Source of the DNA: an uncultured Clostridia bacterium
GTDB taxonomy: Bacteria; Bacillota_A; Clostridia; TANB77; CAG-508
DNA: 25,447 bases
Direction: 5' to 3'
Assembly (NCBI GenBank): GCA_944388685.1
Contig: CALXJS010000023.1
Coordinates: 1 to 25,447, forward strand
The position numbers were made by a program, and so were the translations under genes. This document shows positions 3,438 through 17,398 of the stretch, in pieces. Numbering within the stretch: the first letter of the stretch is position 1; every line of letters starts with the position of its first letter. The notes below the pieces were generated by a model. That model saw only the letters and a program-made list of their open reading frames with translations. It searched no databases and was not told the origin of the DNA.

Positions 3438-4668
3438 TTTTCATCTCTTCTATTGCTTTTAATATACCATATTTTCCATAATCATAAGTCAAACTACCTT
3501 GCATATAAGCTATATATGGTTCTCTAATTGGTCCATCACAGCTAAGTTCAATAGTTGAACCTTCTGTAAAAGTTCCTGCTGCCATTATGACTTCATCTTC
3601 ATATCCGCCCATTGGACTTGGCTCTGGAACAACAGATGAATCAATTGGAGATCCTTTTTGAATTCCTTGACAGAATTTTATTAATTTTTCAGCGGTTCCT
3701 AAATGAATTGTTTGCACTATATCTGCTCTTTCTTCATTGTATTTTGGTTCAACTGTATACCCTAATTCTTCTAAAATGGCACTAGCAAATACGGCTGTTT
3801 TGACACTACTTGCTACAACTTGTGGCGCAAAAAATAGTCCTTTTAATAAATTGGTATTTTGATTTAAAGAAGGTCCTATTTCTTTTCCAATTCCTGGAGC
3901 CGTTAATCTTTCCGCACATAGTTTTATTAAATGTGCTTTTCCCACAATATATGCTCCACTTGTGGCAATACCTGCACCTAAGTTTTTCATTAATGAACCT
4001 ACTGCAATATCTGCTCCAACTTCAATTGGTTCTCTATCTTGCACAAATTCTCCATAACAATTATCCACCATGATAATTACTTCTTTGTTGACTTCTCTTA
4101 TAGCTTTTATGGCTTTTTCGATTTTTTCTATTGTCAAACTTTCTCTTGTTGAATAGCCTCTTGACCTTTGAATTTCGACTAATTTGATATCTTGCTTTGC
4201 TAATCTTTCTTTTATTTTTTCAATATTAAAATCATTGTTAATTAATTCAATTTGTTCATAATGGATTCCATAGGCTTTCAATGAACTTTCATTTACTTCT
4301 TTTCCAATTCCAATAACGGTTTGCAATGTGTCATATGGTTCTCCTGTTATACTAAGCATAGTGTCATTAGGACGTAGTAATCCTGATAGGGTAATTGCTA
4401 AAGCATGTGTTCCTGAAATAAATTGTGCTCTTACCAAACTATCTTCTGCTTTAAATATTTTGGCATAGATTTCTTCTATTTTGTTTCTTCCTACTTCATC
4501 TATTCCATATCCTGTTGATGTTGCTAAATGCATTTCTTGCAAATTACATTCTTGAAATGCTTCAATTACCTTTACGCTATTTTTACTACATATTTCTTCT
4601 ATTTTTTTGAATTGTGGTTCTATTTTTTTTTCTATTTTTTTTGATAGTTCCAATAATTCTTGGTTCAT
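3433..4668 (-). CDS. Methionine gamma-lyase-like PLP enzyme (YnbB family)
   Basis: This 411-residue fold-type I PLP enzyme belongs to the family annotated as 'methionine gamma-lyase family' or 'aluminium resistance protein' (B. subtilis YnbB-like). Reactions are poorly established; a C-S lyase activity is plausible. The visible cofactor motifs are the SGTHAL phosphate-binding turn (residues 85-90), the PLP-ring aspartate in VDNCYGEF (D202) and the Schiff-base lysine in GSLMKN (K228). C-terminal blocks such as DGPIREPYIAYMQGSLTYDY are also typical, and the length is normal. The ATG at 4668 follows a strong AGGGGGAA site at a proper distance. It heads a likely three-gene transcript with the flavoprotein and YigZ. 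Family membership is firm; substrate is open. Confidence 0.9.
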   Translation of the reverse strand: MNQELLELSKKIEKKIEPQFKKIEEICSKNSVKVIEAFQECNLQEMHLATSTGYGIDEVGRNKIEEIYAKIFKAEDSLVRAQFISGTHALAITLSGLLRPNDTMLSITGEPYDTLQTVIGIGKEVNESSLKAYGIHYEQIELINNDFNIEKIKERLAKQDIKLVEIQRSRGYSTRESLTIEKIEKAIKAIREVNKEVIIMVDNCYGEFVQDREPIEVGADIAVGSLMKNLGAGIATSGAYIVGKAHLIKLCAERLTAPGIGKEIGPSLNQNTNLLKGLFFAPQVVASSVKTAVFASAILEELGYTVEPKYNEERADIVQTIHLGTAEKLIKFCQGIQKGSPIDSSVVPEPSPMGGYEDEVIMAAGTFTEGSTIELSCDGPIREPYIAYMQGSLTYDYGKYGILKAIEEMKR

Positions 4669-4982: not shown

Positions 4983-5027
4983 AAAAATAGCTGTAATTGT
5001 TTATATTTTACAATTACAGCTATTTTT
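4983..5027. terminator. Bidirectional intrinsic terminator (rpsF-ssb-rpsR operon)
   Basis: The arms AAAAATAGCTGTAATTGT (4983-5000) and ACAATTACAGCTATTTTT (5010-5027) are a perfect 18-base inverted repeat with a 9-base loop. The arms end in A/T runs, so both strands read a stem followed by T residues. On the minus strand it ends the ribosomal operon; on the plus strand it could end the candidate RNA at 4885-4971. Confidence 0.85.
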
Positions 5028-5032
5028 ATTGT

Positions 5033-5147
5033 ATAGGAAAATCGAATTTTATCTTGACCTTATGTGGATTTTTCCGTATACAACAAGGTTAATCTACATA
5101 TATTTGTGAAGTACTGCGAAGCAGTCTTCACATGTGTGTGTCGAAAT
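5033..5147 (-). repeat. Duplicated structured element, copy 1 (after rpsR)
   Basis: This 115-base segment aligns along its length with 5935-6051. Conserved blocks in plus-strand order are ATAGGAAAA, TATCTTGACC, GGATTTTTCCG or its equivalent, ATACAACAAGG, and GTCGAAAT. It contains a hairpin GGAAAA-TC/GA-TTTTTCC (5036-5043 with 5067-5075) and a second hairpin TGTGAAG/CTTCACA (5105-5132) with inner CTGC/GCAG. The last base overlaps the rpsR stop codon. It lies between rpsR and the operon terminator, so it should be present in the mRNA 3' end. Confidence 0.75.
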
Positions 5148-5425
5148 TATTTTTGTGCATATGGTAATAATGCAATATGTCTTGCTCTTTTTATAGCAAT
5201 TGTGATATCTCTTTGATGTTTTGCACACATTCCGGTATTTCTTCTTGGTAAGATTTTACCTTTATCACTAATGAATTTCTTTAATTGTTCTGGATTCTTA
5301 TAATCTAAAACAAAATTTTTATCACTACATAATAAACATACTTTTTTTCTTTGTTTTCTGAATCTTGGATTGTAATCCTCATCATAATTTTTATTATTTC
5401 TCTTATTTTGTTTTTTATCTGCCAT
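5147..5425 (-). CDS. rpsR: 30S ribosomal protein bS18, zinc-binding type
   Basis: This 92-residue protein of the small ribosomal subunit binds 16S rRNA next to S6. It has a Lys/Asn-rich N-terminal extension followed by the conserved core ending [19 protein letters not shown]. Residues C30, C33, C67 and H70 make a CxxC...CxxH site, so this is the zinc-containing ('C+') form; many bacteria carry a zinc-free paralogue and switch under zinc starvation. It is the last gene of rpsF-ssb-rpsR, 21 bases after ssb, with GGGGGGAA upstream of its ATG. Confidence 0.96.
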
Positions 5426-5446
5426 TTTCTATTCCCCCCTAACAAA

Positions 5447-5878
5447 TTAGAATGGTAGGTCATCACTTGAAGACATTTCAAAATCTGCTCCCATGTTACC
5501 AGGTGCTGTATTTCCAAATGTATTTTCAAAAGTTGTATTGTTTGATGTTTCTCCATCTCTTTTACTATCTGCAAAATATGCTTCTTCAGCAACAACTTCT
5601 GTTACATAATGTTTTTGTCCTTGTTCATCATCCCAAGTTCTTGTTTGAATTCTTCCAATAACACCTACTTGTTGACCTTTCTTAAAGTACTTACTACAAA
5701 ATTCTCCTAATTTACTCCATGCAACAATATTGATAAAATCTGCTTGTCTTTCTTCTCCTTGTCTTACAAATCTTCTATTAACTGCTAGACTAAATGAAGA
5801 TACTAATGTATTACTTGTTTGTGTATATCTTGTTTCTGGATCTCTTGTTAATCTTCCCATTAAAATTACTTTGTTCAT
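5447..5878 (-). CDS. ssb: Single-stranded DNA-binding protein
   Basis: SSB coats single-stranded DNA during replication, recombination and repair and recruits partner proteins. The 143-residue product has the OB-fold opening MNKVILMGRLTRDPETRYT, the core DFINIVAWSKLGEFCSKYFKKG at about residues 47-68, an Asn/Thr/Gly-rich linker, and the acidic interaction tip DDLPF at the extreme C-terminus. The position between rpsF and rpsR is the conserved arrangement in Firmicutes. AAAGGTG precedes the ATG at 5878, and a stable hairpin (5901-5925) lies just upstream of that site. Confidence 0.96.
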   Translation of the reverse strand: MNKVILMGRLTRDPETRYTQTSNTLVSSFSLAVNRRFVRQGEERQADFINIVAWSKLGEFCSKYFKKGQQVGVIGRIQTRTWDDEQGQKHYVTEVVAEEAYFADSKRDGETSNNTTFENTFGNTAPGNMGADFEMSSSDDLPF

Positions 5879-5900
5879 TTCTTATCACCTTTCTTTACTT

Positions 5901-5925
5901 TAAATAAAGGCCCCTTCTTTATTTA
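5901..5925 (-). promoter_or_regulatory. Hairpin in the ssb leader
   Basis: TAAATAAAG (5901-5909) and CTTTATTTA (5917-5925) are perfectly complementary around a GCCCCTT-type loop. On the minus strand the stem ends about eight bases before the ssb ribosome site and is not followed by a T run. It is therefore more likely an mRNA-processing or translation-control hairpin than a terminator. Confidence 0.4.
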
Positions 5926-5934
5926 ATTTATTAT

Positions 5935-6051
5935 ATAGGAAAAATCCTCTTCTATCTTGACCACATATAGATTTTTCCGCATACAACAAGGCTAATTCAC
6001 CTTGTTGCGTACAAGATTGTTTTGCAATTTTGTACATATGGACGTCGAAAT
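5935..6051 (-). repeat. Duplicated structured element, copy 2 (between rpsF and ssb)
   Basis: This 117-base segment is the second copy of the element at 5033-5147. The hairpin GGAAAAATC/GATTTTTCC (5938-5946 with 5970-5978) is a perfect nine-base stem. The second hairpin GTACAA-ATTG/CAAT-TTGTAC (6009-6035) has the same architecture as in copy 1 but an unrelated sequence. Copy 2 also has CAACAAGG/CCTTGTTG (about 5984-6007) and, just beyond, CGAAATC/GATTTCG (6046-6062). It fills most of a 200-base gap between rpsF and ssb. Confidence 0.75.
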
Positions 6052-6078
6052 CTTTGATTTCGTTAACACACGCCTTTC

Positions 6079-6363
6079 TTATTTTTCTATTTTTACAGTA
6101 ATAAATTTTATAATATCATCTGTAATTCTGTAAACTCTTTCAAGTTCAGCTATTAATTCTGGTTTTGCTTCAAAGTTGAACAAAAGATATGTAGCTTCTT
6201 TGAATTTTTTAATATCATATGCTAATCTTCTTTTTCCCATGTTTTCAACTGATTCCACTTTACCATTTTCATTGATTAATCCTGTGAATTTTTCTTCTAA
6301 AGCTTTTAAACCTGCTTCGTCAACGTTTGGATTAACAATGATAATACTTTCATATTTATTCAT
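6079..6363 (-). CDS. rpsF: 30S ribosomal protein bS6
   Basis: S6 binds the central domain of 16S rRNA as a heterodimer with S18. The product opens MNKYESIIIVNPNVDEAGL and ends ERVYRITDDIIKFITVKIEK, typical of bS6 in sequence and length (95 residues). Two in-frame ATGs occur, at 6369 and 6363. I choose 6363 because the ribosome site GGGAGG lies nine bases before it but only three before the first. It is the first gene of rpsF-ssb-rpsR. In many bacteria the leader of this operon binds the S6:S18 complex; a hairpin CTTGCAA/TTGCAAG (6402-6408 with 6432-6438) is present in the leader, but I could not confirm the known motif. Confidence 0.95.
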   Translation of the reverse strand: MNKYESIIIVNPNVDEAGLKALEEKFTGLINENGKVESVENMGKRRLAYDIKKFKEATYLLFNFEAKPELIAELERVYRITDDIIKFITVKIEK

Positions 6364-6506
6364 TATCATTCACCTCCCTATGGATTTATAACCTGCATTT
6401 TCTTGCAAGTAGAGATACTTCTTTTTTATAATTGCAAGTTTATTTTTTCCATTACAAGAAATACAAATTCTTATAATGTAAAAAATATTGTTCTTTAATT
6501 ATAAAA

Positions 6507-6538: not shown

Positions 6539-6570
6539 CTATCATATTTTTTTATAGATTTCAAGTATAT

Positions 6571-6614
6571 TTTTCACTTTTTATCTAATAAATTTTCACT
6601 TTTTATCTAATAAA
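6571..6614. repeat. Perfect 22-base tandem duplication
   Basis: The unit at 6571-6592 (TTTTCACTTTTTATC...TAAA) is repeated exactly at 6593-6614. The second copy ends three bases before the stop codon of the radical SAM gene. It is probably a replication-slippage duplication without function. Confidence 0.85.
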
Positions 6615-6617
6615 TTG

Positions 6618-8195
6618 CTATATTACCTCTAATTTTTCATAATTCTCCATACATACTCTTTTTGCTTCTGGTTTCATAAAAGTCAGTCTTTCAATCAATC
6701 TTTGATAATGCTCTTTAGAATTTTCTAGTACATCTTCTAGTTTATCTATTTTTTTACTAGCATATATATTATAATATTGAATTCCTTCTTCTATTTGTTT
6801 CTTAGAAACAGTATAATGTCCAAAATAAATTAAATTAAATAAGTCTTTCCATTCTTTCTCATTAAAATCTTTCTTTTCCATATATTGAGTAATAATTGAA
6901 TAAGAACTATTTTCATAGTCCTTTTTTAAGGTTGCTTTTTTTGTATTTATCATATCTAATAATTCTTTTGATAGACCTACTAATTGACTTAAGAGAATCA
7001 CATTTTCTTTTAAATAATCTTGTATAACTCTAATAGCATAGTACAAAATTGTATGATTTTCTTCTAAAATAGAGGCTCCTGCATAATCCCTAATGTGAAT
7101 TGTTTTAGACCTAAGAACAGCCAATGGATTAACTTCATTAATGATTTTTGTTCGATAAAAATAGCCTTTATCTAACAAAGAATAAGAAATGATATTATGA
7201 TATATATTTGATATGATATTTTCATAAGAATCTGTATATAAATTATTTAAACTATATAATTGTTCATTTCCCCATGTTGCAATATTCCCATTGTAACTAA
7301 TTAGAAAATCCAATCCCCATTCATCATTTTTATTTTTTACTAAAGATGGATTACTATAAGAATTATATTTCATATCATTATCAAAAAGTGTAATTAATTG
7401 TTCTAAATTATTAGCATTTGGATTTCTCAAATTTACTTTTAAGTTAGAATGAAATATTTGTGCAATTCCTACACTTATTTTATAACCATCAGGAAAGTGT
7501 AATGCATATCGATATAATCCAATTTTAAAAATTTCCTCATTATCTGATACGTATTTTTTTCCATCCGTTTTTGTACAACCATAATGTTCAATTACTTTTT
7601 CAATAGAATTATCTCCTGTTAATGTATGTAATTGTAATTCAAAATTTTCTTTATCTGCGAAAAAATTTTTATATACGTCAATAATATTGAAAATACAATT
7701 GATTCCTATTTTAGATATATGCCATTTATCAATGCTAATTCTAAGAACAACTTTTGTAGGTGTTTTTCTTTGACATAATGCTTCGTACATTTCACTAATC
7801 ATATTTCTAGTAATTTTAGCATCTGCTCCCCACATACCGCTTGTGACAATTACGATTCTATCAGTCTGTGCTCTTCTAATAGTTTCTTTTATATATTCAA
7901 ATTTTTTAAATGGCTCTCCTCCACCTAAAATAGATAAATACCCATTGTTAGAGGCATTAATAAATGCGATAAACTTTTCAAATCCTTCTCTTGAAAATTC
8001 ATACTGCTCTCTTGGTAACTCAAAGCCCTCATTATCTGATCTAAAAAAGCAATGTGAACATTGAACATCACAAAATTTTGTAAAAAATACAAAAGCCATT
8101 GTTTTTCCTTTAAAGGTTTTCATTTTATTTTCATGAATCTTAACCTTTGTTATAATTTCTTGAATATATGTATTTGGCTCATCAAAAATATTCAT
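6618..8195 (-). CDS. Radical SAM enzyme, unassigned subfamily
   Basis: This 525-residue protein carries the 4Fe-4S/SAM motif CDVQCSHC (C42, C46, C49) followed by a SAM-binding GGGEP (residues 91-95) in a typical N-terminal half-barrel. A late segment, YNGNIATWGNE...NNLY, resembles the start of SPASM-like C-terminal regions but has Trp where a cluster cysteine is usual, and no further CxxC motifs occur. So one cluster is expected. Roughly 200 helical C-terminal residues are unassigned. I prefer the ATG at 8195 (GGAGGG ten bases upstream) to the in-frame ATG at 8213, which overlaps that site. It follows the phosphatase gene closely and ends the apparent four-gene operon. Function is unknown; peptide or small-molecule modification is possible. 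Confidence 0.8.
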   Translation of the reverse strand: MNIFDEPNTYIQEIITKVKIHENKMKTFKGKTMAFVFFTKFCDVQCSHCFFRSDNEGFELPREQYEFSREGFEKFIAFINASNNGYLSILGGGEPFKKFEYIKETIRRAQTDRIVIVTSGMWGADAKITRNMISEMYEALCQRKTPTKVVLRISIDKWHISKIGINCIFNIIDVYKNFFADKENFELQLHTLTGDNSIEKVIEHYGCTKTDGKKYVSDNEEIFKIGLYRYALHFPDGYKISVGIAQIFHSNLKVNLRNPNANNLEQLITLFDNDMKYNSYSNPSLVKNKNDEWGLDFLISYNGNIATWGNEQLYSLNNLYTDSYENIISNIYHNIISYSLLDKGYFYRTKIINEVNPLAVLRSKTIHIRDYAGASILEENHTILYYAIRVIQDYLKENVILLSQLVGLSKELLDMINTKKATLKKDYENSSYSIITQYMEKKDFNEKEWKDLFNLIYFGHYTVSKKQIEEGIQYYNIYASKKIDKLEDVLENSKEHYQRLIERLTFMKPEAKRVCMENYEKLEVI

Positions 8196-8215
8196 TTGTA
8201 AAAATCCCTCCATAA

Positions 8216-17280: not shown

Positions 17281-17398
17281 TGTCCAATTGGGGACGTTTC
17301 TGTTTGAGACATTTTTATGTCAACTCACAATGTTTAGTTTAAAATATTTTATAAATCAACATAAAAATGTCTCAAACAGAAACGTCCCCAATAAGACA
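17281..17398. repeat. REPIN-like large palindrome B between ppaC and smc
   Basis: Positions 17290-17320 and 17359-17389 form a perfect 31-base inverted repeat, beginning GGGGACGTTTCTGTTTGAGA. Flanking bases TGTCCAATT (17281-17289) and AATAAGACA (17390-17398) extend it to 40 bases with two mismatches. The 38-base loop is very A/T-rich. Each arm equals one unit of the family seen at 2001-2045. The right end abuts the ppaC stop codon (17399-17401), and the left end is a few bases from the smc ribosome site. It would form a very stable hairpin in a ppaC-smc transcript. Confidence 0.9.

Follow-up and report, generated by a model that had tools for sequence, protein, structure and literature searches.

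A dispersed, hairpin-built repeat at the rpsF-ssb-rpsR operon of an uncultured Clostridia bacterium is probably a non-autonomous mobile DNA element

A structured repeat found twice at the rpsF-ssb-rpsR operon of an uncultured Clostridia bacterium is probably a non-autonomous mobile DNA element, built of hairpins and 107-186 bp long in the full forms seen. A mobile repeat was one of the readings offered in a preliminary description of the window (the whole 25,447-nucleotide stretch of DNA analysed here), and it agrees with the many copies in related genomes, with relatives' sites that lack the insert, and with the occurrence of tandem copies.

Two copies at the operon and a dispersed family

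Both copies are oriented along the plus strand and so run antisense to the operon, whose genes run on the minus strand as rpsF (ribosomal protein S6, 6079..6369, TIGR00166), ssb (single-stranded DNA-binding protein, 5447..5878, TIGR00621) and rpsR (ribosomal protein S18, 5147..5425, TIGR00165). Copy 1 (5029..5146) is 3′-truncated, lacking the last third of the element, and ends ...GTCGAAA immediately ahead of the rpsR stop codon. Copy 2 (5931..6082) is full length, has the right end GCCTTTCTTAT, and scores 119.9 bits over positions 1-152 of our covariance model R1, which was built from 39 copies including copy 2 itself. The preliminary description had the two sites right, but its ends, 5033-5147 and 5935-6051, leave out the first arm of hairpin P1 and the right end of copy 2; it also placed both copies in gaps between operon genes, which holds for copy 2, in the rpsF-ssb gap, but not for copy 1, which lies beyond the last gene, rpsR. 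That the copies are related and share an orientation was borne out: a 56-nt stretch is 82% identical between them (5038-5093 versus 5941-5996), and the block TTTTCCGYATACAACAAGG occurs in the window only at these two places when up to 3 mismatches are allowed, with no matches in 100 shuffles.

The first hairpin, P1 (5029..5083 in copy 1, 5931..5986 in copy 2), had been missed. It pairs TTGTATAGGAAAATC with GATTTTTCC-G-TATACAA in copy 1, with one bulged G, and the conserved block ATACAACAAGG, previously taken as single-stranded, is mostly the 3′ arm of this 15-16-bp stem. The second hairpin, P3, has the two-part stem originally reported, GTGAAG-T-ACTGC/GCAGT-CTTCAC with a GAA loop in copy 1 (5106..5131, type A) and GTACAA-G-ATTG/CAAT-TTTGTAC in copy 2 (6009..6035, type D). 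Copy 2 also has the inner stem of P4 (6046..6062, CGAAATC/GATTTCG), and its outer P2 and P4 stems are broken, which suggests that it may be a chimera of two subtypes. Folded as RNA and compared with shuffles, copies 1 and 2 gave z-scores of -5.3 and -4.8 on the plus strand and of -3.5 and -2.9 on the minus strand.

Beyond the window the element is dispersed and variable. The full form reads TTGTATAGGAAAAATC..GATTTTTCC(G)TATACAACAAGGTTARRY..P3..P4..YTTTTCTTAT, with several types of P3 and P4, and there are shorter deletion forms, copies of hairpin P1 alone (L212, L229) and tandem copies (L038, L104, L118, L268, L285). At least 118 stretches in public genomes match TTTTCCGNATACAACAAGG, several per genome, and the source is in most cases a MAG under the name uncultured Clostridia, Clostridium or Eubacteriales. 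Nine of the matching loci, from other taxa (L023, L025, L052, L054, L065, L075, L076, L090, L111), contain neither element end and therefore look like chance pattern matches. Left ends with at most one mismatch numbered 15 in G002, 32 in G006, 56 in G013, 2 in G016, 20 in G023, 14 in G037 and 16 in G040, against 0-1 for the reversed pattern, some copies counting double because P1 can be a perfect palindrome. The search of relatives by covariance model that the preliminary description had proposed did find further copies: with R1 the element was detected in 68 of the 145 genomes sampled from one bacterial family, that of G040, and in 7 of 391 genomes from the same class, 6 of these 7 being also in the family sample, under stricter filters and with at most 21 (family) or 7 (class) candidates scored per genome. 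Near-identical copy sets occur in some genomes, such as G093, and the 778 kb of G013 hold 20 full copies, 7 without the 5′ part, 3 without the 3′ part, 1 without both and 6 at contig edges.

The element matched no Rfam family above its gathering score; a second search gave 7 sub-threshold matches, of which the only one over the element was to sRNA_1300 (20.2 bits versus a gathering score of 48.8). An exact pattern search of viral contigs and a search of phages with copy 1 as query each returned 0 matches, and no account of the element was found in the open-access library searched, including the available portions of PMC6542083, PMC3446304, PMC2267715, PMC3733652, PMC10969869, PMC3049150 and PMC4424553.

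Other repeats were seen in the same sequences. A second structured family (GTTCTTGTATAGGAAAAATC..hairpins..GAACAATA..), with the same P1 palindrome as the element, is present in L062, L081, L018, L135 and L067, and in L218 (G013 C20, near 3524-3612) a GGGGACAG..CTGTCCCC palindrome is inserted in the P1 loop of an element copy. The window itself contains a direct repeat, ATTTTTCACTTTTTATCTAATAA, as two abutting copies at 6569-6613, just beyond the 3′ end of a minus-strand ORF (6618-8213), and two near-identical 32-nt repeats with GGGGACGTTTC at 2001-2032 and 17281-17312. In a related genome (L164) the GGGGACGTTTC motif also borders the gene of a RAYT-type Y1 transposase, which gives the 32-nt repeats the look of REPs from a separate RAYT system.

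Covariation and the level at which pairing is kept

The stems P1, P2 (the outer stem of the 3′ part), P3 and P4 covary. We counted paired cells and double changes in three alignments, in which copies share ancestry and the counts are not independent events: A2 (52 copies, P1 and P3) is 97.8% paired with double changes in 8 of 27 pairs, and A3 (39 copies) is 97.1% paired with double changes in 15 of 43 pairs (94 cells). The largest, A4, comprises 103 matches at E <=1e-8 from 96 chosen sources and, being fitted to the model, leans towards structure; it too is 97.1% paired, with double changes in 30 of 43 pairs (485 cells), against 35-54% paired and double changes in 4-14 pairs (13-62 cells) in slid controls. 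A kept fold with changed stem sequence, first noted between the two window copies, thus extends across the family. Further pair types were not above shuffles, 492 of 500 reaching the A2 count and 282 of 500 the A3 count.

Selection on an RNA from the plus strand would be expected to leave more G-T than A-C cells, and selection on one from the minus strand the reverse. A3 has 13 G-T and 18 A-C cells and A4 has 47 and 31 among 3,871 cells; the two alignments lean opposite ways, so the pairing is probably kept at the DNA level. For comparison, 22 tRNAs from the same loci, identified with ARAGORN, have 36 G-T and 0 A-C among 469 pairs; because ARAGORN favours standard pairs, the zero is partly built in, and the wobble rate gives the firmer comparison, at 1.25% of element pairs against 7.7% in the tRNAs. 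This informal test on related copies favours a DNA-level fold, and with wobble pairs rare and roughly even between strands, unlike those of the tRNAs, the RNA-level selection initially proposed is not supported. Predicted energies differ with the molecule assumed: the plus strand is favoured in 62 of 76 copies with RNA energies and in 29 of 76 with DNA energies.

These results bear on the idea that the repeat is an RNA regulatory or processing element under selection in the rpsF operon, the least probable of the explanations weighed here. The strong fold, the covariation, the position of copy 2 in an operon spacer and the plus-strand preference of the RNA energies would suit it, although the plus strand is antisense to the operon in both copies. 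Apart from the wobble test and the Rfam result, the distribution argues against it. In 30 operon loci of relatives the model search gave one strong match, outside the operon genes (L136 702-830), and one weak match overlapping there, leaving 0 strong copies at the operon, while the same element adjoins many unrelated genes elsewhere; a dedicated role in S6/S18/SSB balance, as once suggested, finds no support in this pattern.

Insertion sites and the hairpin and T-tract target

Copy 2 is an insertion. The rpsF-ssb gap could be aligned between the window and 18 of the 30 relative loci, the other 12 being cut off or more diverged, and in 17 of the 18 it is short and without the element; the spacer is 200 bp with copy 2 and about 45-70 bp in relatives. 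In the remaining relative, L132, a repeat unlike the element, structured-looking and about 200 bp long, occupies the ssb-rpsF spacer where the window has copy 2, which suggests a repeated insertion target. Copy 1 is very probably an insertion as well, since the relative L133 has the site without an insert, as ...CTGTTTTTTTAT|TATTTTTGTGC; weak model matches near the rpsR end in L131 and L134 (E 0.005-0.008) suggest that this site, too, may be a repeated target or carry old remnants. Copy 1 adds length between rpsR and a terminator-like hairpin. As probably tolerated passengers, the two copies make the rpsF-ssb spacer and the rpsR 3′ flank longer.

The boundary between element and target DNA was examined at L117, a site without the element in 14 of 16 relatives. 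All 14 have TAT or TAC at the point where the right end of the element finishes, 11 of them as TTAT or TTAC, and the L117 copy ends TTAC; from this we infer that the last bases of the element's right end are probably target DNA. The right-end TTA may be conserved as a neighbouring stop codon, as in both window copies; in copy 2 it is common to the rpsF stop codon TAA (6079..6081, minus strand). Divergence at L112, the other site compared (17 loci), was too great for base-exact use.

The left flank of the element ends in a T-run plus TTA, and copies tend to sit immediately 3′ of a hairpin with a trailing T-tract that ends TTTTTTA; one copy (L202) sits behind the 3′ end of a tRNA. Both window copies abut hairpins. 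The target of copy 1 (4984..5028, plus strand) is a 17-bp hairpin and T-tract (...TATTTTTA) that looks like the operon terminator, and that of copy 2 (5900..5930, plus strand) is a 10-bp hairpin, TTAAATAAAG..CTTTATTTAA, plus TTTA, the hairpin being kept in relatives without the insert. The right end of the element, a hairpin plus CTTTTCTTA, resembles this target.

The preference extends to the family, in counts from which orthologous sister-species sites were removed only where the 40-nt flanks were identical. A hairpin abuts 89 of 183 unique copies against 204 of 915 base-shuffled flanks. Among copies at T-tracts (148 with a tract of at least 5 ending in A, minus 12 tandem copies), 77 of 136 have an abutting hairpin and 59 lack one by the test used, against 363 of 1500 other intergenic T-tracts sampled from 3722. 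Copies are found in convergent gene gaps more often than gaps at large (32 of 107 versus 166 of 1386 gap views) and less often in divergent ones (7 versus 206). Of the 136 copies, 101 lay in the loci used for sorting by gene orientation; after 6 of them in ORFs and 16 at edges had been left out, the hairpin excess held in convergent gaps (12/20 versus 121/412, Fisher p 0.006), codirectional gaps (20/30 versus 249/805, Fisher p 9e-5), antisense gaps (11/22 versus 363/1879, Fisher p 0.001) and divergent gaps (4/7 versus 92/543, Fisher p 0.02). Because the excess is present in all four orientations, tolerance near gene ends alone does not account for the hairpin preference.

A hairpin with a T-tract is the same target logic as that of group IIC introns in the accessible part of PMC4424553, and it raises a further explanation, that the repeat is a retro-element moved through RNA by a reverse transcriptase at terminators, in the manner of a SINE or a very small group IIC intron. 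Copies with only the left end do outnumber those with only the right (40 versus 18 off contig edges), in loci mostly picked by a left-side pattern and with incomplete right-end patterns. The truncation bias in G013 does not run that way, with 7 copies lacking the 5′ part, 3 the 3′ part and 1 both; RVT_1 was not found in 3 of 8 genomes, namely G093, G013 and G040, all rich in copies (MAGs being incomplete); and the covariation is poor in wobble pairs. Movement through RNA seems to us very unlikely.

Candidate movers and known systems

No gene was found to travel with the element. In loci L001-L178 and L199-L258 and the window, searched with right-end patterns that miss some types, 97 left ends were paired with a right end, 50 stood alone (10 at edges), 24 right ends stood alone (6 at edges) and 10 arms were reversed; no left and right end lay 230-5000 bp apart, and no autonomous copy was seen. 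Among genes of at least 100 aa within 1500 bp of copies, the largest group covered 7 loci and was judged by eye to be housekeeping, so that no linked gene emerged. A reading as attC (GTTAGGC) was also considered and dropped, no matching R″ box being seen.

An ordinary MITE, moved by the DDE transposase of an insertion sequence whose terminal repeats gave rise to P1 (TTGTATAGGAAAAATC..GATTTTTCCTATACAA) and which inserts at TA or TTA, is a possible explanation, if on balance a less than likely one. P1-only copies exist, TTA stands at both junctions, and MITEs commonly occur without a partner in their own genome. On the other side, the left and right ends of the full element do not form an inverted repeat, the loci searched hold no end pair at the spacing of a larger parent, and copies prefer hairpin targets, which is not usual for DDE elements.

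A further candidate mover is a Y1 (HUH) transposase, of IS200/IS605 or RAYT type, acting on single-stranded hairpins as it does for REPs and PATEs: hairpins lie near both ends, insertion takes place 3′ of a short motif rich in T, many genomes of the family have Y1 genes (89 of 145), and element fragments lie within about 300 bp of such a gene at L163 and L168. We nevertheless consider this quite unlikely. Taking the element and Y1 samples as the same 145 genomes and counting Y1-negatives by subtraction, both occur in 42, the element only in 26, Y1 only in 47 and neither in 30 (Fisher p=1.0). No Y1 match was found in 4 of 9 element-bearing genomes, nor in 7 of 19 genomes with at least 10 element matches, including G093 with its near-identical copies (MAGs being incomplete). 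The remaining flanks of the 28 Y1 loci examined carry no element ends, and many RAYT genes have GGGGACG-type repeats instead.

The mobile DNA element we favour could spread as follows. An enzyme would recognise the folded element DNA, as a single strand or a cruciform, and would join it at the TTA that follows a hairpin and its T-tract. Since the element's right end looks like this target, the next copy could land there, giving the tandem arrays seen. A fuller version, which we advance only tentatively and regard as doubtful in all its parts together, would need neither a Y1 transposase nor a reverse transcriptase to be resident: the folded DNA would be inserted at hairpin and T-tract sites by a host enzyme or an unknown one, the element's own end would re-create the target, and whole hairpin modules would be exchanged with pairing preserved.

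Among known systems the best match in kind is bcr1, along with the remaining group A repeats of the Bacillus cereus group; BOX elements and group IIC introns are analogous in part. The element is not a member of any of these families. The hosts of bcr1 belong to a different bacterial class, and hairpin targeting and hairpin subtypes are not described for it in the accessible portions of the literature beyond the original papers. Its TTTAT end motif fits the element's left flank, TTTTTTAT, and the right end is TTCTTAT in most copies. Some plasmids carry bcr1, according to the available text of PMC6542083; three element copies compared with a plasmid collection gave chance-level matches or none, with no relevant DNA similarity. 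BOX, RUP and SPRITE of Streptococcus pneumoniae are likewise small structured repeats, BOX being modular, and like our element are overrepresented between convergent genes and inserted into one another; BOX and RUP are bounded by terminal inverted repeats and duplicate their target (all from the accessible part of PMC3049150), whereas the element lacks an end-to-end inverted repeat and, unlike them, has a hairpin plus T-tract target. Group IIC introns share insertion at intrinsic-terminator motifs (PMC4424553, in the part available), but the element is only 107-186 bp long, without an internal reverse transcriptase or a ribozyme domain recognisable by eye. REP/RAYT and IS200/IS605-type non-autonomous elements are also short and hairpin-rich; they differ in their Y1 partner, with which our element has no association, and the RAYT genes here are mostly flanked by other repeats. 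Like a MITE, the element is short, dispersed and polymorphic for insertion, but it is not AT-rich relative to the genome, a MITE feature in the accessible part of PMC3049150 (copies have 24-43% G+C, most 31-40%, and the surroundings about 27-31% at the first loci examined), and its ends, TTGTATAGG on the left and CTTTTCTTA on the right, are not spanning terminal inverted repeats.

Repeats of this small, structured kind, bcr1 and BOX among them, are common, and the mover of some, for example the CGTC REPs, is unknown as far as the available text of PMC3733652 goes. Strong base-pair covariation alone is no proof of RNA function, and the wobble-pair rate together with strand symmetry can help to tell DNA folds from RNA folds. 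With its many copies, near-identical sets, insert-free sites, structural subtypes and measurable target, this family offers direct tests of how such an element moves.
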